Positions 605-34,953 of a stretch of DNA of 36,711 nt are shown here, piece after piece (position 1 is the first letter of the stretch; the number at the start of each line of letters is the position of its first letter). A model generated the notes under the pieces. The model was not told the origin of the DNA. It saw only the letters and a list, made by a program, of their open reading frames with translations, and did not search any database. The stretch covers positions 1 to 36,711 of IMG/VR virus record IMGVR_UViG_3300023096_000011, one strand, 5' to 3'. The DNA comes from a virus. The position numbers and the translations under genes are program-made.

Positions 605-621
605 TGCAATTCCTTGGTGAA

Positions 622-3053: not shown

Positions 3054-3646
3054 CGCTTGCCCTCCAGCGCCCGGCGCGCGAGATGGCCGATCAGCGGCGC
3101 GGACACAGCGGGCGCGGCCAGTGTCGGAACGTGCTCGCGCGCGTATTCGAGCGATATCCGTCCGCGGTCGACGGCGTCACGCAGCGCCACCTCGCGGCCC
3201 TGCACGTCGTAGCCCAGGCTCGGCGACCACTCCACCGGCATGCGGTGCTCGCGCGCCGCGATGATCGCCTTGTTGTAGGCGTCGCGGAACGCCATGCGCG
3301 CGGCGATCGGGTCGCGCTGCTGCAGCAGGGGCAGCGCCACACCCCAGGCGGCGCACATTTCCGAGGTCCAGACGACCGAGCGGCTGTCGTCGAACGGGAT
3401 CGCGGCCCATGCCTCGTCAGCAGTCGGCCGGCCATCGTCGAGGCGGCTCACCACATCGGAGACGGTCAGCAGACCGCGGACCTCCTTGCGGCACCGGGTC
3501 AGCGCGCCGAACACCTGCTCTTCAGGGAAGCCGGCCAGATCGCCGACGAACACCGCCGCGGCCTCGGGGCTGAAGGTGCGCCCGCAGAGTTCCGCGGTCA
3601 CGGCGACGGCTTGGATCAGGGCGACCGACGGTTCAGCGGTTGCCAT
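3050..3646 (-). CDS. Putative replication accessory (helicase-loader-like) protein, 198 aa
   Basis: The chosen start is ATG at 3646 (MATAEPSVALIQAVAVTAEL), preceded by GAAGGGAACCTCT; a start seven codons earlier is possible. The N-terminal third is helical with the pattern of phage helicase-loader domains: LCGRTFSPEAAAVFVGDLAG, then FPEEQVFGALTRCRKE and LLTVSDVVSRLDDG. The C-terminal half is helical and contains Trp-rich stretches. It follows the DUF1376-type replication gene and overlaps it by 14 bases, a usual place for the second component of an initiator and loader pair. The loader assignment is inference from context and pattern. Confidence 0.55.
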   Translation of the reverse strand: MATAEPSVALIQAVAVTAELCGRTFSPEAAAVFVGDLAGFPEEQVFGALTRCRKEVRGLLTVSDVVSRLDDGRPTADEAWAAIPFDDSRSVVWTSEMCAAWGVALPLLQQRDPIAARMAFRDAYNKAIIAAREHRMPVEWSPSLGYDVQGREVALRDAVDRGRISLEYAREHVPTLAAPAVSAPLIGHLARRALEGKR

Positions 3647-4325
3647 AGAGGTTCCCTTCGCGCGCACGCGCCTTGTCGATCAGCGGTCCGAACGCGGCGG
3701 CATTGGCGCCGGTCTTGTCGGCCTGGCGCGCTGCAGCCTGCGTGCTCTGCCGGCCGGTAAACCACTCGGTGCGCAGCTTCTCAGCGTCGCGCAGCAGCAG
3801 CCCGACCGAGTGCCCGCCCTGCAGGTACCACCCGTTGTTCGAGCGCACGTAGAAGGCGGCCACCTGCGGCGCTTCGTCCGCGCCGATGCGCTTCACCAGT
3901 TGCGCGAGTTGCCCCATCACGACCTGATTGCGCACCGGCTCGACGTCGTAGCGCGCGCGGTAGGCGGTGCAATAGAGCGCCCAGACAGCGGCCGTCGCGC
4001 TCGGCTTCTTCGGCTCGGGCGTGGCCTTCTTCGCCGGTGCAGGGCCCGTGCCCTCCAGCGTGAACCCCTCGACGATCTCGTCGCCGCGGTGGAAGTGCGC
4101 GCCCTCGCGCAGCACGAAGAACTCGGCCAGCATGTCGCGCGTCGCCTTCTTCTCGGCCGGCGTGGTCGCGCGAGCGATGCGCACGCAGCCGGCGAAGTCG
4201 CCAGGGAGCGGCCGGCCAGTGGCGACGACGCGGTCGAGCAAGCGCCGGTAGATGCCCTCCTGCTGGGCGGTGAGGTTGGCGGTGCGCGCCAGAAGCGACG
4301 CGCCCGGGTCTTGCGCGGCGCTCAT
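3633..4325 (-). CDS. DUF1376 (YdaU)-type replication protein, 230 aa
   Basis: The N-terminus matches the DUF1376 pattern: LLARTANLTAQQEGIYRRLL (residues about 11-30), then a winged-helix-like region to about residue 90. A Lys/Pro/Ala linker (about 95-112) follows. The C-terminal domain contains YVRSNNGWYLQGGHSVGLLL and DAEKLRTEW, a motif known from phage primosomal or replication-initiator proteins of the O/DnaT kind. This two-part layout suggests an initiator that binds origin DNA through the first domain and recruits the helicase machinery through the second. ATG at 4325 overlaps the upstream stop. Confidence 0.75.
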   Translation of the reverse strand: MSAAQDPGASLLARTANLTAQQEGIYRRLLDRVVATGRPLPGDFAGCVRIARATTPAEKKATRDMLAEFFVLREGAHFHRGDEIVEGFTLEGTGPAPAKKATPEPKKPSATAAVWALYCTAYRARYDVEPVRNQVVMGQLAQLVKRIGADEAPQVAAFYVRSNNGWYLQGGHSVGLLLRDAEKLRTEWFTGRQSTQAAARQADKTGANAAAFGPLIDKARAREGNLYGNR

Positions 4326-5324: not shown

Positions 5325-5446
5325 AGGTGCCGATGTTGGCACAACACGAAACAGAGCGCAATGCCAAAATGTTCACAATGGCTATTGCGTTGCTGTGCCA
5401 AAGACGGCATGATTCGTCCACAGCAACACACCAACCGGAGAGCAGC
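5325..5446. promoter_or_regulatory. Divergent control region between early-left and early-right operons
   Basis: This 122-base interval separates the outward-facing first genes of both early operons, so both must have promoters here. It holds TTGGCACA at 5336-5343 and its inverse TGTGCCAA at 5394-5401, plus a partial copy TGCCAA at 5362-5367. These are candidate half-sites for the HTH protein. A weak rightward promoter could be TTGCGT (5385-5390) and CATGAT (5408-5413) with 17 bases between them. No strong consensus promoter was found, so exact sites are tentative. GC content is visibly lower than in the neighbouring genes. Confidence 0.55.
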
Positions 5447-5722
5447 ATGGCAAACAAGATCCACTTTCGGCTTACCAAAGAAGGTTCGGCCGCTTGCGCC
5501 TGTGGCTGCGTTCGCAAAGACGGCTCAGTGAGCAAAAACAGTCGGACGACTTACGCGCATATTCCGGCTTCGTGCGTGGTGGGGCCTGATGAATTCCGAG
5601 CAACGCCTGCCGCTGACCGCTGCGCGCATTGCGCCGAACAATTCACCGCGCGCATGAACGCCCGCCGCGTCAGGTCGGGCAAGCCACTCTACTCCGACGC
5701 CTTCACCAAGACGATCGCCTAA
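5447..5722 (+). CDS. Small Cys-rich (zinc-finger-like) protein, 91 aa
   Basis: The start is ATG at 5447, preceded by CCGGAGAGCAGC. The product begins MANKIHFRLTKEGSAACACG. Cys residues cluster as CACGC near residue 17 and CAHC near 64, with another Cys about 44, which could bind one zinc. The rest is basic. It is the first gene of the rightward operon, a place often used for early host-take-over or regulatory proteins. No family recognised. An upstream extension to 5327 crosses the control region and is rejected. Confidence 0.7.
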   Translation: MANKIHFRLTKEGSAACACGCVRKDGSVSKNSRTTYAHIPASCVVGPDEFRATPAADRCAHCAEQFTARMNARRVRSGKPLYSDAFTKTIA

Positions 5723-5770
5723 GACAGCCACAGTCCAAGCCGGACGCAGACGGCTTGCGCTGGCACTGTC
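5723..5770 (+). other. Extended imperfect stem-loop in intergenic gap
   Basis: Immediately after the TAA of the first rightward gene lies CAAGCCG (5736-5742), loop GACGCAGA, then CGGCTTG (5751-5757). An outer pair GACAG (5723-5727) with CTGTC (5766-5770) and partly matching CCA/TGG bases extends the stem. No T tract follows, so it is not a classical terminator. It could be an RNA processing or stability element between genes 1 and 2 of the operon. Confidence 0.5.
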
Positions 5771-5802
5771 CCACCCAGCACACCACCACCAAGGAACCCA
5801 TC

Positions 5803-5919
5803 ATGATCCTGACCTGTTTCATCCACGGCGAGCCTGCATGGCACGAACTCGTTGGCACCGACCGCCTGCTGCCGGACCCGCACGACGGCTGCACCTACAC
5901 GCTGGAGCCGCGGAAGTGA
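5803..5919 (+). CDS. Mini-protein, 38 aa
   Basis: ATG at 5803 follows the leader CACCACCACCAAGGAACCC, the best ribosome-binding site in this part of the phage. It opens a 38-codon frame starting MILTCFIHGEPAWHELVGTD and ending TLEPRK. The stop overlaps the next GTG as GTGA. It contains two Cys and three His residues, which may allow a small metal site. Its size means no family can be assigned, but the leader and coupling make it a convincing gene. Confidence 0.65.
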   Translation: MILTCFIHGEPAWHELVGTDRLLPDPHDGCTYTLEPRK

Positions 5920-6206: not shown

Positions 6207-6409
6207 CCTCGATCACCCGTCACACGTTTCCCGGCCTGCAGCGCCACGATGCCGAACTGCAGAAGTTCCGCGGCCTGCGAGTCGCCACGCTGCGGCAGGA
6301 ATACGACCTGCTGGCCGCCAATCAGAAGCCCACGCCCTGGGAACTGCGCCGGCGCGAAAGCCTACGCCTTGCCCTTGGCATCACACCACCGAAGGAGAAC
6401 CTCCTGTGA
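6203..6409 (+). CDS. Hypothetical protein, 68 aa
   Basis: ATG at 6203 lies in an ATGA overlap. The protein begins MTSITRHTFPGLQRHDAELQ and is mostly helical and basic (RVATLRQEYDLLAANQ, RRRESLRLALG). The distribution resembles small phage DNA-binding or scaffold proteins, but no family is recognised. Its end overlaps the next GTG start, which is preceded by GAAGGAGAACCTCCT inside this gene's last codons. Confidence 0.65.
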   Translation: MTSITRHTFPGLQRHDAELQKFRGLRVATLRQEYDLLAANQKPTPWELRRRESLRLALGITPPKENLL

Positions 6410-6744
6410 ACACGACCCGCCTCTCTCAAGCCCGCCGCCTGTTCTTCTGCGACGGCGTCCCTGCATCCACTGCTCGCCACAATGCACGCCAGTGGACGCG
6501 CTCGGTCCGCTTCCTGGGCGCACGCTGGCATGTCCTGCAGCAGCAACCGAAGGCGCCGTCGACGGTGACGCTCGGCCAGCTGCGCGAGCGCCTGCAGAAG
6601 ATCCGCGGCACGCCGTGGGGCGCGAAGCTGGTCAGCGAGACCGAGACGATCGCCGACCGAATCGAGTTAGAGATCGCCGAGCGTGAGATCGCTGCTGGTC
6701 TGCGTCCGGCTGTGCGCGGCGAATCGTGCTGGGGGCCGCTGTAA
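6406..6744 (+). CDS. Hypothetical protein, 112 aa
   Basis: The start is GTG at 6406 with GAAGGAG eight bases upstream. The protein begins VNTTRLSQARRLFFCDGVPA. An N-terminal part about residues 10-35 has Cys, His and Arg (FFCDGVPASTARHNARQWTR). The second half is a long amphipathic helix (LRERLQKIRG, IADRIELEIAEREIAAGL). It might be a small nucleic-acid-binding or coiled-coil protein; no family assigned. Stop overlaps the next ATG as TAATG. Confidence 0.65.
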   Translation: MNTTRLSQARRLFFCDGVPASTARHNARQWTRSVRFLGARWHVLQQQPKAPSTVTLGQLRERLQKIRGTPWGAKLVSETETIADRIELEIAEREIAAGLRPAVRGESCWGPL

Positions 6745-7299: not shown

Positions 7300-8499
7300 G
7301 TGATCATTTTCACCAACCCCGGAGAGATCGACATCCGCTCGATCTCGACCTTCGGCGTCAGCGTCAAGGAGGGAAACAACCCGATCGGCTTCTTCGGAAC
7401 CGGCCTGAAGTACGCGATCGCCGTGCTGCTGCGCACCGGGCATCGCATCACCATCATGTCGGGCGATACCGTCGTGCAATTCGGCATCGAGGCGCAGGAT
7501 GTGCGCGGCCAGGCGTTCGACTTCGTGACGATGCAGGTCGGCGACGGCCCCGCGACCTCCGTCGGCTTCACGACGGAACTCGGCAAGCAATGGGCTGTGT
7601 GGATGGCCTACCGCGAAATCGCCTGCAACTGCAAGGACGAAGGCGGCAGCGCTGACCGCGCGCCGTACATGGTCGACCCTGAGGCCGGTCGCACGCAGAT
7701 CGTTGTGCAGGGTGACGAGTTCGATGCGGTCTTCGCGCGTGCGCACGAGTTCATCCTCGGCGACGAACCCCAGGCGGTCTACGGGACGCTCGAAGTTCGG
7801 AAGCAGCCGTCGCATCACTTCTTCTACCGCGGCGTCCGCATCGCCGACCTGCATCGCCCGTCGCTGTTCACCTACAGCGAGCAGACGCAGATCGAACTGA
7901 CCGAGGACCGCACCGCGAAGAGCATGTGGGAGGTGCAGCACCGGATCATTTCCGGCGTGCTGCAGGCGACCGACCGGGACTTCATCCGCACGATGGTGAC
8001 GGCGCCCGAGGAGAGCTACGAATCGACGCTCGACTTCCACGGCTGGGGACCGACGCCGTCGGCCGAGTTTCTGGAGGTCGTCGGCGAGTGCACGGCGAAC
8101 AAGCTGGTGAAGGTCAACCCATCGGCGAAGAAGCGCCATGACCAGCATGTGCAGGCCGCGTTCGCGCCGCGCGAGATCGTGATGACTGCGGTTCAGGCCG
8201 AGAGCATGGAGCGCGCGCTCGACTTCTGCGAGCGCATCGGCTTCTCGATCCGCGGCGCATTCCCGATCCTTGTGGTCGAGTCGCTGGGGAGCGGGATCCT
8301 CGGCCAGGCGCACGGCGGCACGATCTACATCGCCGAGCGCGTGTTCCACCTGGGCGGCTCGAAGCAGCTGGCCGCGACGCTGATCGAGGAGTTCGTGCAC
8401 CTGCGCCACGGCTGGGCCGACCTCACGCGGGAACTGCAGAATTTCCTGTTCGAGAAGCTGGTCAGTCTGGGCGAAGAACTCGCAGGGGAGCCGCTGTGA
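7300..8499 (+). CDS. GHKL/HSP90-like ATPase-related protein, 399 aa
   Basis: The start is GTG at 7300 behind the leader CACCACCACCAAGGAAAAC. The N-terminus contains NPIGFFGTGLKYAIAVLL (residues about 27-44), matching the G-rich GxxGxGxK loop of GHKL ATPases such as HSP90 and MORC. The usual preceding Asn-containing helix is missing or very divergent. The middle is beta-rich. Near the end, residues 359-371 hold LIEEFVHLRHGWAD, an EExxHxxH arrangement resembling a degenerate zinc-peptidase site. Homologues with the same IGFFGTGLKYA motif are known in other phages without known function. It lies directly before the exonuclease gene and overlaps it by GTGA. Confidence 0.6.
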   Translation: MIIFTNPGEIDIRSISTFGVSVKEGNNPIGFFGTGLKYAIAVLLRTGHRITIMSGDTVVQFGIEAQDVRGQAFDFVTMQVGDGPATSVGFTTELGKQWAVWMAYREIACNCKDEGGSADRAPYMVDPEAGRTQIVVQGDEFDAVFARAHEFILGDEPQAVYGTLEVRKQPSHHFFYRGVRIADLHRPSLFTYSEQTQIELTEDRTAKSMWEVQHRIISGVLQATDRDFIRTMVTAPEESYESTLDFHGWGPTPSAEFLEVVGECTANKLVKVNPSAKKRHDQHVQAAFAPREIVMTAVQAESMERALDFCERIGFSIRGAFPILVVESLGSGILGQAHGGTIYIAERVFHLGGSKQLAATLIEEFVHLRHGWADLTRELQNFLFEKLVSLGEELAGEPL

Positions 8500-9431
8500 A
8501 GACCCCAGGCATCTACTACGGCATGCCGATCGAGGACTACCACAGCCTGACGGCCGACTCGATCTCGAAGACTGGGCTCGACGACATGGCCAGGAGCCCG
8601 ATGCACTATTACGCGCGGCACCTGCACCCCGACCGGCCGACACCGGAGCGGAAGCCGTCGCACGACTTCGGGAACATGCTGCATTGCGCGGTGCTGGAGC
8701 CGGAGCAGTTCGACCAGCGCTACTGCGTCCTGCCGCCGGGCGCACCGAAGCGGCCGACCGAGGCGCAATGGAACGCCGTGAAGTCGAGCGAGAGCAGCGA
8801 GGCGGCGAAAGCCTTCTGGCTGGATTGGAACCAGCGCACCGCCGGCAAGGCAACGATCCCCGCAGCCGATCGCGATGCCGTGCGGCAGATGGCCGCCAGC
8901 GTGCGCAAGCTGACGAACGTCTGGGGCAAGCTCTCTGGCGCCGAGGTGCTGAAGGGACCGTCCGAGGTCTCGGCCTTCTGGGTCGACGAGCAGACCGGCG
9001 AGGCGTGCCGCTGCAGGCCCGACAAGGTCTTCATGCTGAACTCGAAGCAGGCCCTGCTGTGCGACCTGAAAGGCTTCGGCGATGTGCGCCCGCGCGAGTT
9101 CTCCCGGCAGTGCGGCAAGCTGTCGTATCACGTTCAAGATGCGTGGTACTCCGACGGCTTCGCGCACGCCAGCGGGATCGAGGTCGTCGGCTTCGTGTTC
9201 CTCGTCGTCGAGGACACTTGGCCATTCGCCGCGGCGTCCTTCGTGCTGGGCCAGGAAAGCCGCCTCGAAGGGTTCAACGAATACCGCCACCTGCTCGACC
9301 TCTACGCGCAGTGCAAGCGCACCGACACGTGGCCGGGCCCATCCGACCGCACGACGAAGATCGACCTCCCCTCCTACCTGTTCGACCGGCCCGACGAGGT
9401 GATCGAGTTCGACGGTAACCCGCAATCCTGA
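8496..9431 (+). CDS. RecE/exonuclease VIII-type PD-(D/E)XK nuclease, 311 aa
   Basis: The start is GTG at 8496. The protein follows the RecE C-terminal / DUF3799 pattern: YHSLTADSISKTGLDDMARS near the N-terminus, FGNMLHCAVLEP with His63, then Glu about 157, RPDKV with Asp about 176, DLKG with Asp190 and Lys192, and YHVQDAWY near 211. These residues form the metal-binding nuclease core. The family degrades one strand of duplex ends 5' to 3' to make recombinogenic tails. The following gene is a conserved companion; no RecT or Bet-type annealing protein was recognised. Confidence 0.85.
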   Translation: MKTPGIYYGMPIEDYHSLTADSISKTGLDDMARSPMHYYARHLHPDRPTPERKPSHDFGNMLHCAVLEPEQFDQRYCVLPPGAPKRPTEAQWNAVKSSESSEAAKAFWLDWNQRTAGKATIPAADRDAVRQMAASVRKLTNVWGKLSGAEVLKGPSEVSAFWVDEQTGEACRCRPDKVFMLNSKQALLCDLKGFGDVRPREFSRQCGKLSYHVQDAWYSDGFAHASGIEVVGFVFLVVEDTWPFAAASFVLGQESRLEGFNEYRHLLDLYAQCKRTDTWPGPSDRTTKIDLPSYLFDRPDEVIEFDGNPQS

Positions 9432-10859: not shown

Positions 10860-11065
10860 CCATCGCTCTACGCCGAGAGGTCATCCGCACCGCGCACGCG
10901 ATGGCCAACGCGAGTTCCATGCGAGAGCGTGCGGTAGCTGATCACCTGCTCGCCCTGGGTCGCCTGCTTACCGCCCTCACGAATCAAGGTATCGAGGAGA
11001 TCGTCGTGCTGCCGTTCGCAGCGTCAGAACTTGAAGCCGTGCGCGGCCAGGAGAAGCAGCAATGA
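10856..11065 (+). CDS. Hypothetical protein, 69 aa
   Basis: ATG at 10856 overlaps the ASCH gene stop as ATGA. It begins MTIALRREVIRTAHAMANAS and is almost entirely helical, Ala- and Leu-rich, with charged C-terminus (AVRGQEKQQ). It resembles small phage helical-bundle proteins. A start at 10829 would lengthen it into the previous gene and is less likely. No function suggested by the sequence. Confidence 0.6.
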   Translation: MTIALRREVIRTAHAMANASSMRERAVADHLLALGRLLTALTNQGIEEIVVLPFAASELEAVRGQEKQQ

Positions 11066-11931
11066 CCGCGCCGAAGATCATGCCCGTGACGCAGTGCAAG
11101 GCGGTTTCCTCTTGCATGGCCAGCCCGAGCAGCTACGCGAGCCGGCTGTCGAGCTACGCGAAGCCCACGGCGAAAGCGGTGGCAGCGCTCGCCCTGCGCG
11201 AACTCGAAGCGGCTAGGCAGAAGGACATCGAGACGCACGCAGCGAACGCGCCAGCCCTCGAAGCGAACGCGGCCATCGTCGAGCAAGTCACGGCCATGAT
11301 GAATGCGGTCGGCATGCCCACGAAGTACAGCGAGCGCGATCCGAAGTCGCGGGCGCGCTATCCGAAGAGCATCACCCACGACGCCGGCTATCTCATCGAC
11401 CTGCGCCGCCACTGCCCGACGACCGACGGCTTCGATTGGGCGACCACCACCTACGAACGGCTGCTGAAAGACTACAAGGCCTTTGAAGAGCGCGGCGAGA
11501 AGGAGGCCGAAGAGGCGAAGCGCCAGGCAGAGATCGAGGCGAACCGCGAGATCGAGCGCCGCAAGGCCGACATGGAACTCGCCGCGATCCTGCTGCGCTA
11601 CCAGCTGCCGATCGAATCCTCGTGGGGCGATGTGCTGGAGAACCTGCGCGCGCGCGACCAGCGGCTCGACCTGGCGGTCGGCATGGCGCAGACCCGCGGC
11701 GATTGGTCGGAGGGCCCGTACCGCGTGCGCTCAGCGTTTGACCGCTTCACCATACACACGACCGAAGACAAGGCCATCGCGAACGACGTCCTCTCCTGCC
11801 TCGAAGACTTCGAGGACGGCCGCGTGTTCCGCGACACGACATGGAGCTACAGCAGGCTCTTCGCCGAGGCCGCGGACCAGCAGCTTTCTCAGGACGTTCA
11901 GACGGCGATGGCGCGCGACTCCTCCTATTGA
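11062..11931 (+). CDS. Hypothetical coiled-coil phage protein, 289 aa
   Basis: ATG at 11062 is in an ATGA overlap. The N-terminal 110 residues include SSYASRLSSYAKPTAKAVAA and a conserved-looking block SERDPKSRARYPKSITHDAG. Residues about 130-175 form a strongly charged helix (EERGEKEAEEAKRQAEIEAN), probably coiled coil. The C-terminal region (FDRFTIHTTEDKAIANDVL) is mixed. It belongs to the recombination and accessory group by position, but no catalytic motif or named family is visible. Confidence 0.65.
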   Translation: MTAPKIMPVTQCKAVSSCMASPSSYASRLSSYAKPTAKAVAALALRELEAARQKDIETHAANAPALEANAAIVEQVTAMMNAVGMPTKYSERDPKSRARYPKSITHDAGYLIDLRRHCPTTDGFDWATTTYERLLKDYKAFEERGEKEAEEAKRQAEIEANREIERRKADMELAAILLRYQLPIESSWGDVLENLRARDQRLDLAVGMAQTRGDWSEGPYRVRSAFDRFTIHTTEDKAIANDVLSCLEDFEDGRVFRDTTWSYSRLFAEAADQQLSQDVQTAMARDSSY

Positions 11932-11993: not shown

Positions 11994-12635
11994 ATGCAAT
12001 TTTCCCTTCCCGACTTCACCAAGACCCGCATCCTCGACATCGATGCGCTGAGCCAGAAAGGACGGCCGCCGAACTCGAAGCCCGGCGTTCAGATCGCCTG
12101 CTCGGTCGAACTGCCGAACACCATCCTCACCGAGTTCGACGGCCGCATGCGTGGCGCGATCTACGAGAAGAGCGCCGCGGCCGAGACCGATCCGCAGAAG
12201 GGCCTCGACGGCGTGGAGCCGGTCACTGACCTCCCGAACCTGACCTCGTTCGGCCGCCGCCTGCGGTCCTTCGCCTTCGAGGCCGAGTTCACCGGCTTTA
12301 CGCTGGTGGTCGACTACGGCACCGGCGGCAAGTCGAATCTGTCGCTCCCCGACGCGAAGCTCGGATCGTTCCGCTTCACGCCGAAGGAAGGCGGAACCGT
12401 GACGCTGAAGTTCAAGGTCGAGGCGAACGACGTGCCCGAGGCGACGTTCGGCAAGCTGGCGACGCTGAAGAGCCGCGATGCGCAGATCCAGCTGCTGCCG
12501 CCGGAGGTCGACCAGGCTCAGCAGGATCTCGAACACGCCGAGCGCGTGCTCAAAGGTGCCGACGGCGTGAACAAAGTCACGAACGCCGGAACTCCTGATG
12601 CGACCGATGCGTTCCTGGCCGCGCAGAAGGCCTGA
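11994..12635 (+). CDS. Conserved phage hypothetical protein, 213 aa
   Basis: ATG at 11994 is preceded by TACAGGAGCCTGCA. It begins MQFSLPDFTKTRILDIDALS. It is beta-rich to about residue 155, with LTEFDGRMRGAIYEK, then a helical C-terminal tail (QAQQDLEHAERVLKGADG). I recall similar proteins near recombination genes in phages of Gram-negative bacteria, without assigned function. The position right after the exonuclease block suggests a DNA-metabolism role. Longer frames starting at 11841 run into the previous gene. Confidence 0.65.
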   Translation: MQFSLPDFTKTRILDIDALSQKGRPPNSKPGVQIACSVELPNTILTEFDGRMRGAIYEKSAAAETDPQKGLDGVEPVTDLPNLTSFGRRLRSFAFEAEFTGFTLVVDYGTGGKSNLSLPDAKLGSFRFTPKEGGTVTLKFKVEANDVPEATFGKLATLKSRDAQIQLLPPEVDQAQQDLEHAERVLKGADGVNKVTNAGTPDATDAFLAAQKA

Positions 12636-12669: not shown

Positions 12670-12728
12670 CGGGTCAACGGCAGCGCACCCCGACCAATCG
12701 AAAGCGCCGCCACACCAAGGAAATGAAA

Positions 12729-13409
12729 ATGAAGTTCTCGAAGATCTCCCTCTCGATCGCCGCCCTGATGTTCGCTGGCGCGGCCCTGGCCACCGGCGCA
12801 GGCAACGGCGCGGCTTCCGTCTCCAGCGGCACGCAGGCATCGGCCGGAAGCGGCATCAACGGCGGTTCGTCGGTGAGCGTCGCCTACTCGCGCAACACGG
12901 CCGGCCTCGATGCGTCGACCGGCTACTCGGCCGGCGGCTCGGTGCTCGGCCAGCAGGCCGGTGCAGCGGGCGTGTCGGGCGGCGTGCAGACGTCGTCGGT
13001 CGGCTTCGCGGCCAATGTGTCGACGGGCAATGCCGGCGGCGCAGCGGCTGCAGGCGGAACGGCATCGGCCGCACAGCAAGGCGCCAAGGCCTACACCGCC
13101 GGCGCAGGCGTGAACGGCAATGTCGCGGGCGGCGCTCAGTCGGCCAGCAGCTTCCAGATCAACGCGGCCGACAACGGCGCTGCAGGTCTGGCGGTCGGCG
13201 GCGATGCGGGCTACTCGGCCACCGCGTCGAGCACGCGCATCGGCATCTTCACGACGAACCGCACGGCGACCACCACGTCGAGCGCCTTCGCCACGACGAC
13301 GCCGCTGCAGTCCTTCACCTGGGGCAACGCCGGGTACACCGTCAGCAATGGCGCGACCTCGTCGGCCGGCGCGAACGCTGTCTCGGGCGGCACCTCCAGC
13401 CACAACTGA
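12729..13409 (+). CDS. Exported Gly/Ala/Ser-rich low-complexity protein, 226 aa
   Basis: AAGGAA at 12717-12722 is properly spaced from ATG at 12729; ATG at 12723 is too close. The N-terminus MKFSKISLSIAALMFAGAAL is a signal peptide, with probable cleavage after ALA at about residues 20-22. The mature part is almost entirely Gly, Ala, Ser, Thr, Asn and Val, with no Cys. It repeats short GGxxxAxS-type segments and has a Thr-rich stretch (TNRTATTTSS) near the C-terminus. This looks like a beta-rich surface or fibrous protein. Gly-rich adhesins and amyloid-like proteins have similar composition, but no family is recognised. It sits in the phage early-right operon, next to a second exported protein. 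Confidence 0.7.
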   Translation: MKFSKISLSIAALMFAGAALATGAGNGAASVSSGTQASAGSGINGGSSVSVAYSRNTAGLDASTGYSAGGSVLGQQAGAAGVSGGVQTSSVGFAANVSTGNAGGAAAAGGTASAAQQGAKAYTAGAGVNGNVAGGAQSASSFQINAADNGAAGLAVGGDAGYSATASSTRIGIFTTNRTATTTSSAFATTTPLQSFTWGNAGYTVSNGATSSAGANAVSGGTSSHN

Positions 13410-13430
13410 TCCGAGCAGCACGCGGAAATG

Positions 13431-13461
13431 AAAAAGCCGCCCGGGTTTGAAGCCGGGCGGC
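13431..13461 (-). terminator. Minus-strand terminator-like hairpin between the two exported-protein genes
   Basis: GCCGCCCGG (13436-13444) pairs with CCGGGCGGC (13453-13461), a nine-base-pair stem with an eight-base loop. On the minus strand it is followed by TTTTTCATTT, the layout of an intrinsic terminator. On the plus strand, the coding strand of both neighbouring genes, the sequence after the stem is CCTCTCAAC, so it would not terminate well in that direction. Confidence 0.6.
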
Positions 13462-13493
13462 CCTCTCAACAGCAACCACACCAAGGAACTGAA

Positions 13494-14129
13494 ATGACGA
13501 CCTCTCTCACCAAGTCGCGAACGAAGAATATCACCGTCGGCCTCGTGCTGCTCGCTTTCTTCGGCATCGCCAGCGCTCAGAGCGCCATCGGCTCGGGCTA
13601 CGGCATCGGCGCAGGCTACGGCGGCGCCGTCGGCGACATCACGCTCAATGCACCCAGCAGCACGACGCCCTCCGACCAGACGATTCGCCACAAGGGCGCC
13701 GGCCAGTTCGCCGCGCCCACCGCTCCGACCACGTTCGGCGCTGTCGGCAATGCCGCCGGTTGTCCGGTGCTCGAAGGCGGCTCCGTCGGCGTGTTCGTCG
13801 CCAACGGCAGCAAGACCACGGCGCGCGAGCTCCCGGGCTGCATGTCGATCCTGCTCGCCCAGGTCCTGTCGAACATCCAGCCGGCCGCAGATGGCTCGAT
13901 CACCTTCCGCGAAAAGGCCATGATCGAATCGCTGTGCGACTTCCCGCAGTACCGCGCGCGCCTGAAGACCGTCGGCTATCGCTTCGGCGGCGCGCCGTGG
14001 ATGTGCGCCGAGGACCGAGCCGAGACGCCGCGCGATGACCGCGCTCGCCTGGGCACACCGGCCGGCTTCGAGGGCGCCAACATGCAGGACCCGGCCGTTC
14101 GTGCACGCGCTGGCCTGCCGCCGCTCTGA
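13494..14129 (+). CDS. Second exported protein with Gly/Tyr-rich N-terminus, 211 aa
   Basis: ATG at 13494 follows CACACCAAGGAACTGAA. The N-terminus TKNITVGLVLLAFFGIASAQ is a signal peptide, likely cut after ASA. The mature protein begins with a Gly/Tyr-rich stretch (GSGYGIGAGYGGAVGDITL), then a Thr/Ala/Pro region, and a more ordered C-terminal half with four Cys (CPVLEGG, GCMSILL, LCDFP, WMCAED) that could form disulfides in the periplasm. The pairing with the preceding exported protein, same leader and same direction, suggests a functional unit. No named family recognised; a lysogenic-conversion or envelope role is a hypothesis. Confidence 0.7.
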   Translation: MTTSLTKSRTKNITVGLVLLAFFGIASAQSAIGSGYGIGAGYGGAVGDITLNAPSSTTPSDQTIRHKGAGQFAAPTAPTTFGAVGNAAGCPVLEGGSVGVFVANGSKTTARELPGCMSILLAQVLSNIQPAADGSITFREKAMIESLCDFPQYRARLKTVGYRFGGAPWMCAEDRAETPRDDRARLGTPAGFEGANMQDPAVRARAGLPPL

Positions 14130-14193: not shown

Positions 14194-14412
14194 ATGGCCA
14201 CCACCCCCCGCAATCAGTACCGCCTCGAAGTTGTGAAGAACCGCCTCGGCATCGTGCACCTGCGCCTGAAGCCACCACGCGGCGGCGAGATCATCCTCTC
14301 CGGCGAACTGCTGGGAGACCACCGTAGCGCCACCCGCACGGCCGAGCGCATCGCAGAAGGAGCGAAACGCGGCTTCAAGGTGGTACAGATCCACGAAGGG
14401 CCGAAATCGTGA
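14194..14412 (+). CDS. Small hypothetical protein, DUF1508-like pattern, 72 aa
   Basis: ATG at 14194 follows GGCCACCAAGGAATCGCC. The protein begins MATTPRNQYRLEVVKNRLGI. The order of beta strands, a GEIILSGELLGDH turn and a helix (SATRTAERIAEGAKRG) resembles the DUF1508 fold found in small bacterial and phage proteins. The typical WxxK-L-K pattern is only partly kept, so the match is tentative. Its stop overlaps the next GTG start. Confidence 0.6.
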   Translation: MATTPRNQYRLEVVKNRLGIVHLRLKPPRGGEIILSGELLGDHRSATRTAERIAEGAKRGFKVVQIHEGPKS

Positions 14413-17460: not shown

Positions 17461-17881
17461 ACCAGAGACCGGGATATTCCGTTGTTCGACCGATAGGGTG
17501 GGCAAGGGGTGCAAGCTGAAGGCGGGCATGAAGGTCGGAGGCCCCCACAACAAGGGGTATTGGTGCATCAGGATAGACGGGCGCTCCTATCTTGCGCACC
17601 GCCTCGCCTGGCTCTACGTGACCGGCCAATGGCCAACGGAAAGCGTCGACCATCGGGACCGAAACAAGATGAACAACGCCTGGGCCAACCTGCGCGACGT
17701 GACGCACACCGTCAACATGCAGAACAACGGAGCGCGAGGGGTGAGCTTCCACAGCGGCAAGTCCCGATGGATGGCCCAGATCGTCGCCAATGGCAAGCAG
17801 CGTCAACGCTACTTCCAAACTGAAGGGCAGGCGCTTGCGGCCCGCGCGGACATGAAGGCTCTACTTCACGCCTCCGCTTAA
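17396..17881 (+). CDS. HNH homing-type endonuclease, 161 aa
   Basis: ATG at 17396 is preceded by AAGGAAGCGA. The HNH core is SYLAHRLAWLYVTGQWP and SVDHRDRNKMNNAWANLRDV, with His68, Asp85-His86, Asn90 and the Asn93/94 pair. A C-terminal basic part (RGVSFHSGKSRWMAQIVANG) resembles an AP2-like DNA-binding region of phage HNH endonucleases. It is the last gene of the rightward operon and its end overlaps the convergent spanin gene by 21 bases. This is the classical placement of a free-standing mobile endonuclease gene. Confidence 0.85.
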   Translation: MNDPAQRPPLTAARLRELLTYEPETGIFRCSTDRVGKGCKLKAGMKVGGPHNKGYWCIRIDGRSYLAHRLAWLYVTGQWPTESVDHRDRNKMNNAWANLRDVTHTVNMQNNGARGVSFHSGKSRWMAQIVANGKQRQRYFQTEGQALAARADMKALLHASA

Positions 17882-18391
17882 CGAGTCGTGGGCGGCTTCG
17901 CAGGCGGCACCGGCGACGTAGGCGTCGTCTGCGGCTGCAGCATAGCGTCCCGCAGCTTCGTCAATTCGGCTGAGCACTGAGGCAAGCATCCCTGCTGCAT
18001 CCGGCTCACCCGGGCTTCGTCCGGCAGCGCCGGGATTCGCGCCGGCTCGACGGCTGGCGGCGACGAGGGCGGCGACACGCCCGCGCAGCTGATCAGCAGA
18101 GGCATCAGCAGCACGAGCAGCAGCATCGGCCGCGGCGGTCTGTTCTTTGGCTTCACGTCGAATCCTTTCGTTCTCTTCCTGGCGGGTGCGCTCGATGGCG
18201 CGCTGCTCATCGGCTTGCGTCTTCGCGGCCTGCGCGTAGGTGGTGCGGTCGTTGGCCAGCGCCTCGCGTGCTTGCGCTGCCTGGGTGCGCCCGTCGCTGA
18301 CCTGTGCGCGCTGGATGAGCACCAGGGCCAGCAGCGCGCCGATCGCGGCGATGTACCAGTATTCCGCCAACAAGCCGAGGACCCGCTTCAC
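17861..18391 (-). CDS. i-spanin, Rz-like (DUF2514-type), 176 aa
   Basis: The start is GTG at 18391, overlapping the endolysin stop as GTGA. The N-terminus VKRVLGLLAEYWYIAAIGAL and ALVLIQ form a single membrane helix. A long Ala/Glu/Arg-rich coiled coil follows (about residues 30-110), then a looser C-terminus with two Cys. This is the layout of inner-membrane spanins, which work with an outer-membrane lipoprotein to fuse the two membranes at lysis. The partner is nested inside this gene. The size agrees with DUF2514 proteins. Confidence 0.75.
   Translation of the reverse strand: MKRVLGLLAEYWYIAAIGALLALVLIQRAQVSDGRTQAAQAREALANDRTTYAQAAKTQADEQRAIERTRQEENERIRREAKEQTAAADAAARAADASADQLRGRVAALVAASRRAGANPGAAGRSPGEPDAAGMLASVLSRIDEAAGRYAAAADDAYVAGAACEAAHDSLSGGVK
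17878..18156 (-). CDS. o-spanin, Rz1-like lipoprotein nested in the Rz gene, 92 aa
   Basis: GTG at 18156, preceded by AAAGGATTCGAC, opens a frame fully inside the i-spanin gene in a different phase. Residues 11-24 (MLLLVLLMPLLISC) are a lipoprotein signal with Cys24 in the LISC lipobox. A proline-rich region (PPSSPPAVEPARIP) and a Pro/Thr-rich C-terminus follow, as usual for Rz1. A start at 18210 is possible but has a less suitable site. The nested arrangement matches lambda Rz/Rz1, so the assignment is quite safe. Confidence 0.8.
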   Translation of the reverse strand: MKPKNRPPRPMLLLVLLMPLLISCAGVSPPSSPPAVEPARIPALPDEARVSRMQQGCLPQCSAELTKLRDAMLQPQTTPTSPVPPAKPPTTR

Positions 18392-19053
18392 GCTTCAGCC
18401 TCGATCGCCTGGCGCACTATGCCGGTGAGGCGCCGCACTTCGTCGAGGCCGAAGGTACCGCCGTTGACGCGCTTTCGAATGCTGGTGGTCTCGCCGAGCA
18501 TGGTGTCTGGGATGCGATCCTCCCACCACGCGATGCAGGCTTCGAGCGCAAACCGTGGCTGCTCCAGCAGTTCAGGAAGCGAGGTGAGGTCCTGACCGAT
18601 CAAGCGACCGACGCGGTCATAGTTCGCGCGCCCGGTGATCTGGATCACGCCTCGCCCGCGGAATCGCCAGCCGTCGCCGTCGTAGAGGTTGCCCAGGTTC
18701 TGCCGGCCCCATGCACCGCCGTAGATCGTATTCGCGATGGCCTGCTGGTCGGCCATCTGCCGGCGGCCGGTGTCGATGCGGCCGAACTGCAGCGCCTGCA
18801 CTGGCGTGATCCGATGGATGCCGAACAGCTTGATCAGCGCGTCGGAGGTGTAGTTCAGGTTCTCGACCAGGCGCGTCAGTCCTGCGCTCTCGTGGATGAT
18901 CTCTGGCAGGAAGTCGACGACGTCTGCGTCTCCCTTCGAGAACGTGCCGTCGTCGATCTCGTCGCTCAGCACATCGCCCCACAGGTCGGCAGTGCTGGGC
19001 CCCACGCCGCACGCTGTGAGGATGCTGGTCCATTGGTCGGGCGTGCGTTTCAT
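18388..19053 (-). CDS. GH19-type endolysin, 221 aa
   Basis: ATG at 19053 follows GAGGCACAA. The protein has the phage GH19 (chitinase-like) pattern: FLPEIIHESAGLTRLVENLN with the probable catalytic Glu55, YGGAWGRQNLGNLYDGDGW, then FRGRGVIQITGRANY. The fold is a lysozyme-like muramidase or transglycosylase and the substrate is peptidoglycan. There is no signal peptide, so it needs a holin for export. It lies between the holin candidates and the spanin pair. A longer frame reaching 19155 is read-through. Confidence 0.9.
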   Translation of the reverse strand: MKRTPDQWTSILTACGVGPSTADLWGDVLSDEIDDGTFSKGDADVVDFLPEIIHESAGLTRLVENLNYTSDALIKLFGIHRITPVQALQFGRIDTGRRQMADQQAIANTIYGGAWGRQNLGNLYDGDGWRFRGRGVIQITGRANYDRVGRLIGQDLTSLPELLEQPRFALEACIAWWEDRIPDTMLGETTSIRKRVNGGTFGLDEVRRLTGIVRQAIEAEA

Positions 19054-30949: not shown

Positions 30950-31273
30950 TCAGGTCTCGTCGATGTTGAAGTGGAGAGTCTGCTGCTCAACGCGGTTTTG
31001 GTCGGTGGTCCAGACGCAGCGTGCCCACTGCTTCGAGCCGTCGGCGCCGATGGTCTTCAGCATCACATAGGCGATCGGGCCGCGGTCGGTGTCCTGCACG
31101 ACCTCGCTGTCGGTGACCTGCAGACCGTCGCTGCAGGTCCAGACGGCTTGAGCAGAGGTCGACACGGCATCGCCTTCGACCAGCCAGCCGCGCAGCGCGA
31201 TCCCATAGTCGAGGTCGCTGCGCACGCTCTTGGTGATGACCTGGCGCCCGTAGCGCTCCTGAAAACCTGTCAT
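30950..31273 (-). CDS. Putative Ig-like structural protein, 107 aa
   Basis: ATG at 31273 is preceded by AAGGGAACACCCC. It begins MTGFQERYGRQVITKSVRSD. The core (LDYGIALRGWLVEGDAVSTS, then WTCSDGLQVTDSEVVQDTDR and YVMLKTIGADG) follows a beta-sandwich pattern that I know from small phage proteins coded near head-tail connectors. Their name varies and function is uncertain. It probably sits on the particle, close to the lectin-like protein coded just upstream. Confidence 0.65.
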   Translation of the reverse strand: MTGFQERYGRQVITKSVRSDLDYGIALRGWLVEGDAVSTSAQAVWTCSDGLQVTDSEVVQDTDRGPIAYVMLKTIGADGSKQWARCVWTTDQNRVEQQTLHFNIDET

Positions 31274-31284
31274 GGGGTGTTCCC

Positions 31285-32859
31285 TTAGAAGCCCGCCGGC
31301 CGCGGCGATAGCTCGATTGTGCGCGACTGGGCGCTGATCACGAGGATTCGATTCTGCGCGGGCAGCGACAGCACGCGCTCGCTGTACCCGAAGACGATGT
31401 CGCCCGGCCGCGCCTGAACGCTGCCCACGGCCGAGACCGACGCCACGCCCGCCGCGGTGCCCGACGTGCGCGACACCGCCGCGCCGCTGCCCTCGGTCGT
31501 CGCGATGCCGGCCGCCGGTGTGGCGCTGCGCGCGCTCGTGCCGCCGGCCAGCGCCGAGACCGATGCAGCACCAGCGGCCGGGGTGAACGCGGCCACGGCG
31601 CGCGCGGATGTGGAAGCAGCCACCGACGCGATGCCGTTCACCGGCACGGCGGTCGATCCCTGCCCGGTGCCGGTCACAGCAGAGACTGACGCGACGCCGC
31701 TCGCTGGCGCCGCTATGGCCTTCGATGCAGCAGCGACCGTGCTGCTGACGGTGGCCAGCCCGACAGCCGGAGACGGCGCTGCGCGCATTGTTGCAGCCGC
31801 GAGGGCCGAGACGATGGCCGAGCCTGCCGCCGGCGTCGCGCCGTATGCCACGGCCGCGGCGCCTGCTGCCGACACGGTGGCGACGCCGCTCGCGCTGGTC
31901 GTTGCGGTCGAGGCCAGGGCAGCACCGCCCGCCGCCACCGATGCCGCACCGGCTGCAGGCACTGCAGAGGATGCGACCCCTGTGATCGACGAGCCCACCG
32001 CGGAGGCAGTCGCCACACCTGCAGCCGTGACTGCCACTGCCGATACGAGAGCGCGCGCGACAGCAGAGACGGCGGCCAGGCCAGCAGCTGCAGCAGCCGC
32101 GACTCGGGTGGTCGCCCGGCCGGCCGCGCTGGTGGTTGCCAGGCCTGCAGCAGCGGTGCCCGCGGTGCGCGAGGTGGCGGCAGCAGTGCGCGACACGGTG
32201 GCGGCGCCGGCGGCGGCCGTGGCGGTGGTCGCCGTCGTGCCGCCAGAGGGACCTGGGAAAGGGAACCCGTCGTCGACGAACGAGGCGGTCACAGACTCGT
32301 TGATCAGGTAGCGGAACTCGTCGATCTTGCCGCGCCAGCCGGTCGAGGCCCCGACGCTCTTTCCGACCCACGCCACGGTCGGCACCGAGAAGCCCGCGCC
32401 GTAGGCCACATTCGCGACCAGCGTCCCATCGATGAAGAGGTAGACGCGCTGGGTCGAATTGACGAAGGACGCGGTCAGCAGGTGCGGGTTTCCGTCGCTG
32501 GCGAAGCTGCCGCGGTTGCCGCTGTTCGCGCCCTCGAAGTCGAGCTCGTTGCTGTTGCGAATATTCAGGTTCCAGGCGTTGGAGCCGAACAGCGTCGTGA
32601 AGAAGAAAGGAGGAGCGGTGCCGGCCTTGACGCGGATGTCGATGCGCCAGTCCCGCGCGCCTGCCATGTTGTTGATGACCGCTGCAGTCGTCGTCGAGAC
32701 TCCACCCTCGGCCGAGGAAAGATCGAGCGATGAAAGCCCTGTGATGGGGCTCACCGTGCTCTGGGTGGCGCCTCCGCTCGCCGTCCAGACGTTGCCCGGC
32801 ACCTCGTCGGTGATGGTCGTGCCGCTGTTCTCGAAGCGGAGGAGAGTGACGAGCGACAC
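31285..32859 (-). CDS. Lectin-like structural protein with 21-aa repeats, 524 aa
   Basis: It starts MSLVTLLRFENSGTTITDEV at 32859. Residues about 1-205 match a LamG/concanavalin A-like jelly roll (TSTGWRGKIDEFRYLINESV at the end). Residues 216-478 consist of about 13 copies of a 21-residue unit with the pattern AAGxATVSAxAxAxxxAxA. A C-terminal domain of about 46 residues (PAQNRILVISAQSRTIEL) resembles a small domain often found in phage structural proteins. The gene is between the capsid and connector genes, so this could be a capsid decoration, head fibre or neck appendage. The combination is unusual. Function is inference. Confidence 0.65.
   Translation of the reverse strand: MSLVTLLRFENSGTTITDEVPGNVWTASGGATQSTVSPITGLSSLDLSSAEGGVSTTTAAVINNMAGARDWRIDIRVKAGTAPPFFFTTLFGSNAWNLNIRNSNELDFEGANSGNRGSFASDGNPHLLTASFVNSTQRVYLFIDGTLVANVAYGAGFSVPTVAWVGKSVGASTGWRGKIDEFRYLINESVTASFVDDGFPFPGPSGGTTATTATAAAGAATVSRTAAATSRTAGTAAAGLATTSAAGRATTRVAAAAAAGLAAVSAVARALVSAVAVTAAGVATASAVGSSITGVASSAVPAAGAASVAAGGAALASTATTSASGVATVSAAGAAAVAYGATPAAGSAIVSALAAATMRAAPSPAVGLATVSSTVAAASKAIAAPASGVASVSAVTGTGQGSTAVPVNGIASVAASTSARAVAAFTPAAGAASVSALAGGTSARSATPAAGIATTEGSGAAVSRTSGTAAGVASVSAVGSVQARPGDIVFGYSERVLSLPAQNRILVISAQSRTIELSPRPAGF
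31426..32214 (-). repeat. About 13 tandem 63-base (21-residue) repeats in the lectin-like gene
   Basis: Motif starts (AAG, ASG or VNG followed by xAxVSA) recur every 21 residues, with one unit of 23 and one of 20. The units have diverged at both protein and DNA level, so this is an old, selected repeat and not a recent slippage. Later units end with Pro (AATP, AVP, AAFTP), which may set the boundary between successive helices or strands. Confidence 0.8.
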
Positions 32860-33709: not shown

Positions 33710-33734
33710 AAGGCCCGGGGATCGCCCGGGCCTT
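33710..33734 (-). terminator. Intrinsic terminator after the major capsid gene
   Basis: On the minus strand AAGGCCCGGG (33734-33725) pairs with CCCGGGCCTT (33719-33710) around a five-base loop, followed by TATTCC. The 10-base-pair stem is perfect and GC-rich; the T tail is short. It lies 23 bases after the capsid stop. A partial terminator here is common in phages and limits downstream expression relative to capsid protein. Confidence 0.75.
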
Positions 33735-33756: not shown

Positions 33757-34953
33757 TCAGGTCACGATGCCGAAGTCACCGTAGATGAACGCTTCCGGAC
33801 GGTACACAGCCAGGGCCAGGCGCTCTTCCGCCAGGATCGTGACCATGTTCTTCACGAAGTCGTCTTCGTTCTCGGTGGCGACTTCGACGCGCGCTTGCCA
33901 GCGGTCAAACACCTGGGCGCCCATGCGGAAGGCGCCGGTCAGGAACTTGTCCACAGCGATCGCCTGCGTCTGCACAACCGGCAGACCCCACAGCGTCGGG
34001 CTGATGTTGCCCTGCGGGTTGCCGATGATGTAGCGACCTTCCGTGTCCTTGGCCAGTTCGATGCGTGCCCAGTCGATCGGGTTCAGCACGTGGCCGGTTG
34101 CAGGGTATTCCGCGAGGAACGCCTGCAGCATGGCGAGGCGGATCATGTCGATCGACGTCGGCGAAGGCACTGCCGTCGGTGCAGCGTAGGCCGTGGCCTG
34201 GGGGATGATGCCCAGCAGGTTCTGGCCGGTGCCGTCACCGTTCAGGAGTTGCTGCTCTTCCTTGAAGGCCAGGCCGTAGCGCATGCGGCCGTCGATGAAG
34301 CTGGCCAGCTGCGCCGCGTCGTCGAGGATCTGGCGCGATGCCTTCACGAAATGCGCGATCACCTTCGGGCTGGTGGTCATCAGATCGAACTTGATCGACG
34401 ACTCGGGCTTCTTCGCACCTTCGGCCACGCCAGCGGCGTTGTTCGTGAACCCGGTTTCCTTCACGTACTCCAGCAAGTTGCCGTCCATCGTGCCGGGGGT
34501 GATCAGGTCACGCACCGTCATGCGGCGCTCGGGCATGGCCAGCACGCCGGCCAGTCGGTTCGGGCGCACGAGGTCGCCGGCCGAGCCGTCTGCGTCGGTG
34601 GTCAGGCTGGTGATCGCTGCCTTGTAGGTCAGGTCGACCTTGCCGCGCGGGCGGGTCTGGCCGAGGAAGGCCTTGACCTTCTCGTCTTGGATGAACTGCT
34701 GGCCGAAGGTCTGATGCTGCACGTCGCCGCCGGCGCCGTTGGCTTCGATCTTCGCGAGTTGCTGCTGAGCCGCTTGGAAGTCCTTGGCGAGCGCGCTGTG
34801 CTCGGTCATCAGCTTGTCGACAGCGGCCTTCGTCTCGGCAGTGATGGCGCCGGAGGCCTTCACCTCTTTCAGGGCGGTCTCGGCGAAAGCCTTGACGTCG
34901 TCCTCGATTTTCTTGATCGAGGCGCTGACGGCTTCGGGGTTGATCGTGGTCAT
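33757..34953 (-). CDS. HK97-fold major capsid protein, 398 aa
   Basis: It starts MTTINPEAVSASIKKIEDDV at 34953. Residues about 1-72 form a charged coiled coil (delta or scaffolding domain; AVDKLMTEHSALAKDFQAAQ). The remaining body contains HK97-fold signatures: ETGFTNNAAGVAEGAKKPES, FVKASRQILDDAAQLASFID, RMRYGLAFKEEQQLLNGDGT and a C-terminal NMVTILAEERLALAVYRPEA. The protease encoded just upstream should remove the delta domain during maturation. Length is typical. It ends with a terminator-like hairpin. Confidence 0.92.
   Translation of the reverse strand: MTTINPEAVSASIKKIEDDVKAFAETALKEVKASGAITAETKAAVDKLMTEHSALAKDFQAAQQQLAKIEANGAGGDVQHQTFGQQFIQDEKVKAFLGQTRPRGKVDLTYKAAITSLTTDADGSAGDLVRPNRLAGVLAMPERRMTVRDLITPGTMDGNLLEYVKETGFTNNAAGVAEGAKKPESSIKFDLMTTSPKVIAHFVKASRQILDDAAQLASFIDGRMRYGLAFKEEQQLLNGDGTGQNLLGIIPQATAYAAPTAVPSPTSIDMIRLAMLQAFLAEYPATGHVLNPIDWARIELAKDTEGRYIIGNPQGNISPTLWGLPVVQTQAIAVDKFLTGAFRMGAQVFDRWQARVEVATENEDDFVKNMVTILAEERLALAVYRPEAFIYGDFGIVT

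Follow-up and report, generated by a model that had tools for sequence, protein, structure and literature searches.

The B protein studied here is related to family phrog_20531, which corresponds to JJJA_0025 of Achromobacter phage JWDelta and is annotated as similar to ORF070 of Ralstonia phage RSL1. The literature on RSL1, on JWAlpha/JWDelta and on phage prion-like domains gave no function for either A or B. In JWAlpha/JWDelta, eight virion bands were assigned, to proteins of the structural cluster, one Ig-domain protein and an RNA polymerase (PMC3915230). Exported low-complexity proteins are also known from the curli system, a partial operon of which, with CsgF and CsgG, is carried by pelagimyophages, its function there being termed unclear (PMC7029224). 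Phage genes for exported proteins often lack a known function, and few of them have a conserved partner together with a conserved order and an intergenic element.

We analysed a complete IMG/VR virus record of 36,711 bases, called the window below. No close relative of this genome was found among annotated phages. The window contains two adjacent genes, A and B, which we compared with phage and bacterial loci. The pair is a reduced, divergent form of an exported three-gene cassette, A-B-C, that has not been described before and for which no published name was found.

Two adjacent genes for putatively exported proteins

Genes A and B are located on the + strand, behind the early module (Table 1). 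A sequence-only reading had described their products as two neighbouring exported proteins with the same leader type, the first almost pure Gly/Ala/Ser/Thr/Asn, the second Gly-rich at its start with four Cys, in an early location. All of these points were borne out. Both open reading frames are in place and have predicted Sec-type signal peptides, read by eye as KFSK, ISLSIAALMFAGAA and ALA followed by T in A, and as KSRTK, NITVGLVLLAFFGI and ASA followed by Q in B. Since the same kind of leader is present in relatives, we take A and B to be exported. Two ATG codons, at 12723 and 12729, may start gene A, whose stop is at 13409. The second is preferred because the AAGGA motif then has a normal Shine-Dalgarno spacing. 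Mature A has 204 residues (A 22, G 20, S 16, T 11, N 7%), with the five residue types making up 76%. Gene B runs from an ATG at 13494 to a stop at 14129 and encodes 211 residues. The exonuclease VIII-like gene and other early-type genes lie upstream. The gene 3′ to B (14194-14412, 72 residues) has neither a signal peptide nor the motif of C. Around A-B, no sigma-70 promoter or intrinsic terminator above chance was observed on the + strand. The late region encodes a 524-residue Ala/Ser/Thr/Val-rich protein with GxAxVSA-type repeats (31285-32859, - strand), which served as a control.

The shared leader extends to the DNA level, as the same sequence, CACCAAGGAA, stands before A and before B. Six exact copies are present in the window as compared to 0.04 expected (0/100 shuffles). 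The motif also precedes gene 14194, so that at least three of the six copies are found right before a gene. Judged from these positions, it looks like a translation leader common to early genes. The perfect hairpin between A and B was absent from the sequence-only reading. It is one of three perfect hairpins with a stem of 9 bp or more in 36.7 kb. Another, with a 10-bp stem (33710-33734), comes immediately after the major capsid gene (33757-34953, - strand), and the third is at 31115-31139.

Table 1. Position of genes A and B and of related features in the window
Feature	Position	Strand	Description
Exonuclease VIII-like gene	8496-9431		phrog_412; upstream of A/B, with other early-type genes
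Gene 11062-11931	11062-11931		homologue on the B-bearing contig of the Variovorax paradoxus ISL-3 prophage
Gene g11994	11994-12635	+	recombination-module gene; homologues adjoin B in L029 (Variovorax prophage) and L077
Leader CACCAAGGAA before gene A	12713-12722	+	exact motif
Gene A (P0001 minus two residues)	12729-13409	+	putatively exported Gly/Ala/Ser/Thr-rich low-complexity protein, resembles A of A-B-C cassettes
Signal peptide of A (predicted)	12729-12791	+	ends AALA before TG; by eye from sequence
A-B stem-loop	13436-13461	+	perfect, 9-bp stem, 8-nt loop
Leader CACCAAGGAA before gene B	13479-13488	+	exact motif
Gene B (P0002)	13494-14129	+	putatively exported; Gly-rich start, four-Cys C-terminal half; divergent, phrog_20531-like
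Signal peptide of B (predicted)	13494-13577	+	ends ASA before QS; by eye from sequence
Four-Cys region of B	13761-14006	+	Cys 90, 116, 148, 171
C-terminal signature QDPAVRARAGLPPL of P0002	14085-14126	+	pattern DPx[VI]RxRxGLPPL
Other CACCAAGGAA copies	610-619 (-), 5787, 7285, 14179		exact motif
Lysis module	17861-19041	opposite to A/B	endolysin, Rz-like spanin, overlapping spanin partner; about 4 kb from A/B

Relatives of A and B in phages and chromosomes

Neither protein gave a match in Pfam, PHROGs, NCBIfam or PADLOC except phrog_20531, and neither was matched in the defence library. By direct tblastn and pattern scans, no match was obtained for A in phages and IMG/VR, or for B in phages, plasmids, IMG/VR and genome_contigs. 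The sole lead to relatives was a weak alignment of phrog_20531 with P0002, from C-terminus to C-terminus (E=0.007). Judged by its C-terminal signature (DPAVRARAGLPPL), its predicted signal peptide and its four Cys, B belongs to this family as a divergent member, and it also has the low-complexity N-terminal half of B proteins. The end DPxVRxRxGLPPL is common to P0002, to the full-length member L042 and to JWDelta. When the DNA pattern for DPx[VI]RxRxGLPPL was scanned over IMG/VR, 14 contigs were recovered (three near-duplicate pairs included, and four truncated where the contig or locus stops), and all 14 encode B-like proteins with that end. As the pattern was built from members including P0002, this result measures the specificity of the signature rather than the identity of P0002 alone. 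The signature belongs to the B proteins of phages; those of host chromosomes are without it.

An HMM of the B domain built from ten relatives did not recognise P0002, its score being not above shuffles. With a 32-sequence HMM, P0002 scored above 5000 of 5000 shuffles, and 235 of 5000 scored as well when the C-terminal 16 residues were kept. Against 399 genomes of the Variovorax family, P0002 had marginal matches only (E 0.001-0.008), whereas the search with phrog_20531 gave good ones. Relative to the Cys, helices are predicted in the same register in P0002 and in a canonical B protein, in models that both have low overall confidence and were built with family alignments. In the P0002 model (mean pLDDT 60), the last 10-residue blocks are among the best predicted, and no fold of BFVD or the PDB was matched at E<=0.001 or Z>=2. 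With the canonical B model, the fold search returned only weak hits to TPR pieces of FimV (Z 2.4 over 47 residues) and uncharacterised phage proteins that are probably members of the B family themselves. No solved structure related to B by sequence was found. In three B proteins (L073, L074, L075), Cys 3 and Cys 4 are lost together, from which we infer putative disulphides 1-2 and 3-4.

Gene neighbourhood brings independent support for P0002 as a B protein. In L077, the gene just 5′ to B is homologous to window gene 11994 (E=2e-17) and is itself preceded by an AAA-type NTPase gene and by an exonuclease-like gene. One of the Variovorax-family matches is in the Variovorax paradoxus ISL-3 prophage, with B close to a homologue of the same window gene (11994-12635) and with a homologue of gene 11062-11931 downstream of B on the contig. 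The earlier idea that such exported pairs are not normally found in replication or recombination modules needs correcting, B being a recurrent passenger beside the g11994 family in the ISL-3 prophage and in L077.

The sequence-only reading had proposed co-conservation of the pair as a check, and cassettes of A-like, B-like and C-like genes were indeed found in many phages and in Comamonadaceae chromosomes. A search for C in IMG/VR gave 18 loci, in 13 of which A, B and C follow one another on one strand (L088-L099, L104), on contigs of up to jumbo size (350 and 385 kb). No separate A was recognised in L100, L101, L103 and L105, and L102 starts too near the contig end. Five chromosomal loci (G008, G126, G132, G136, G219) carry an exported Gly/Ala/Ser-rich A, then B, then a small exported C. 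B proteins are also present in Achromobacter phages JWAlpha/JWDelta and in Pelagibacter phages, and B without A is common. C was not found in the annotated phage collection. Cassettes of the L088-L093 group occur in two IMG/VR predicted prophages each of two genomes (2561511126, 2687453271), and the boundary of the predicted prophage in L090-L092 comes immediately after C. The window shares with the cassettes an exported Gly/Ala/Ser-rich A directly upstream of B, with a stem-loop between them. Because a C gene is absent downstream of B, we call the pair like the A-B-C cassette and not a full member.

The low complexity of A makes its homology hard to judge. Local alignment of P0001 with the A proteins of nine cassettes gave z scores, computed over shuffles of P0001, of 7.1 (L095), 5.8 (L104), 4.9 (L097), 4.3, 4.0 and 4.0 (among L089, L094 and L096), 3.1, 1.3 and 0. 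All controls, namely reversed P0001, an Ala-rich protein of the window and the Gly-rich parts of B, remained below 3. With a profile, P0001 had a weak score of 90.8 bits, which was reached by 25 of 2000 global and 11 of 2000 local shuffles. Several of the cassette A proteins are themselves dissimilar to one another. In these alignments, the likeness of P0001 to other A proteins lies in the order of residues as well as in composition, and we take homology to be probable but not proven.

The stem-loop is a further common feature. Outside the window, a clear one was obtained in 15 of the 16 A-B gaps that were folded, not all of them independent (L088-L093 are near copies of each other, L045 and L046 are close), the exception being the 24-nt gap of L095. 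Perfect stems of at least 8 bp were present in the window and in eight of the 16 other gaps (L044, L045, L094, L096, L097, L098, L099, L104), against a background of 0-0.8 per kb (1.1 in the short L045). The remaining stems are interrupted or use G-U pairs. Fold z scores over shuffles ranged from -1.4 to -6.0, with only -1.65 in the GC-rich window. Stem sequences differ between groups, showing that the feature is kept and not the sequence. We propose that the stem-loop acts as a brake on read-through or as a stabiliser of the A message, and its recurrence across the cassettes suggests that A is made in excess.

Possible function of the pair

Genes with a link to the envelope are found around the cassettes. 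A YkuD-like gene, with a weak L,D-transpeptidase YkuD match below Pfam's cut-off, is 3′ to the cassette in the large phages L094, L096, L099 and L104. Two of these four genes were scanned against PHROGs and both fell into phrog_38499. In L094 and L104, a lipoprotein follows. Beside four of the five chromosomal cassettes stands a receiver/LuxR-type regulator (G008, G136, G219, G126), divergent in G219 and G126. In marine phages, a holin, an M15 peptidase or a lysozyme is near B. No secretion pore was linked to the cassette. As a separate observation, the 107-kb phage contig L104 has two B paralogues and two YkuD-like genes (2029-2754, 3283-3810, 5371-5850, 6285-6632). Another recurring arrangement is seen in Pelagibacter phages (L057, L058, L059, L060, L108), in which B is followed by a protein of 430-610 residues, with an acidic second half where read, and lies near small proteins that carry a single membrane helix or a coiled coil.

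Recurrence of the same order of exported genes in unrelated phages and in host chromosomes suggests that their products work together. A-B(-C) looks like a genuine but undescribed envelope or cell-surface system. We tentatively favour, at a little under an even chance, a reading in which the phage carries A-B as a two-gene version of an exported A-B(-C) cassette whose role is to remodel the envelope of infected or lysogenic cells. The phage would make A and B early or as accessory genes, and Sec would carry them to the periplasm, A being more abundant than B owing to the stem-loop. A may then form a periplasmic or surface layer or a fibre-like matrix. B, its disulphides formed in the periplasm, may anchor or nucleate this matrix through its C-terminal peptide, with the Gly-rich part as a flexible tether. 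The benefit could be altered surface properties, such as exclusion of other phages, cell aggregation or attachment, or preparation of the envelope for release. We count for this model the cassette order in 13 of 18 C loci and in five chromosomes, the z scores of A, the signature in 14 of 14 contigs, the stem-loops, and the envelope-related company of YkuD-like gene, lipoprotein, holin, M15 peptidase or lysozyme and regulator. We count against it the weak similarity of A, the four-Cys region of P0002 that profiles do not recognise, and the lack of a known fold and of a secretion pore. As C is missing, the cassette of the window may be incomplete or may work differently.

Some of the same neighbours would fit a lysis accessory, with B, together with A, helping or timing envelope disruption in the periplasm alongside holin, endolysin and spanin. 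B adjoins a 3TM holin in Pelagibacter phage Mosig, is near a holin-like gene and a lysozyme in ctXG6705 and near an M15 peptidase in HTVC023P, and jumbo phages have a YkuD-like gene 3′ to the cassette. However, the window encodes its own lysis module on the opposite strand, about 4 kb from A/B, and B is part of an early recombination module here, in the Variovorax ISL-3 prophage and in L077. In addition, the chromosomal cassettes adjoin a response regulator that a lysis factor would not need, and neither A nor B matched a holin, endolysin or spanin family. We consider this role rather unlikely. The regulators would fit a host surface or matrix operon that phages acquired and whose moron genes give the lysogen attachment or biofilm traits, and the cassette of L088 is near an integrase. 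Such lysogenic conversion is nevertheless also unlikely, B being present in lytic phages (JWAlpha/JWDelta, pelagiphages) and in jumbo-size contigs, where a benefit to lysogens cannot be the reason.

It might also be asked whether chance has put next to each other two exported accessory genes that have nothing to do with one another, the likeness of A to other A proteins being compositional. The weak similarity of A, the frequency of B without A and the absence of C from the window would agree with this. Yet the z scores depend on residue order with clean reversed controls, and gene order, strand and intergenic stem-loop all match the other cassettes, making chance adjacency improbable. Lastly, A and B could be decoration proteins associated with the virion, since B is just behind tail genes in L073 and since an Ig-domain gene about 2 kb before B in JWDelta encodes a virion protein (PMC3915230). 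Both proteins have predicted signal peptides, are encoded far from the structural module and matched no virion family in homologue searches, a match that would have spoken against the sequence-only reading. Moreover, B is not among the assigned virion bands of JWAlpha/JWDelta, only eight of which were assigned (PMC3915230). A decoration role is thus very improbable, and a major virion role for A or B is unlikely.

A wider form of the envelope-remodelling model, which we regard as doubtful, would make A-B-C a new class of exported system that forms a matrix or fibres independently of curli and is common to tailed phages, including jumbo-size ones, and bacterial chromosomes. A would be the bulk subunit, B a disulphide-stabilised anchor and C an accessory, and phages would use them to alter the infected cell's surface. 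Because Comamonadaceae have chromosomal copies, the question of the cassette is testable without a phage.

Comparison with known systems

With phrog_20531, P0002 shares a predicted signal peptide, a Gly-rich start, four Cys in the same order, the C-terminal DPxVRxRxGLPPL and an early or accessory location. In P0002, however, the Gly-rich part is much shorter, Cys 3 lies further from both Cys 2 and Cys 4, and the CMGSSSGG motif is absent. Unlike in the window, B of JWDelta is not preceded by A. With the A-B-C cassettes, the window shares A directly upstream of B on one strand, the stem-loop between the genes and the putative export of both products, whereas it is without C, its A and B have diverged and the pair stands behind a recombination-module gene. 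By analogy, A and B may also be likened to the envelope-modifying or superinfection-exclusion proteins of phages, which are small exported accessory proteins made in infected cells.

Export by a curli-type route is disfavoured, as no CsgG pore (PF03783) was detected in the window or in any phage record searched. This absence also shows that A-B-C is not the curli system of pelagimyophages. No curlin repeat was matched by Pfam in P0001 or P0002 at E up to 1. A is poor in curlin-type Gln/Asn ladders, which together with the absence of CsgG leaves the term 'amyloid' without positive support. Curli (type VIII secretion) is still the nearest analogy for A-B-C, with an exported low-complexity protein, small exported partners and a LuxR-type regulator beside the cellular copies. 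Should A indeed form a layer or fibre, the phage would encode a surface structure that does not belong to the curli pathway.
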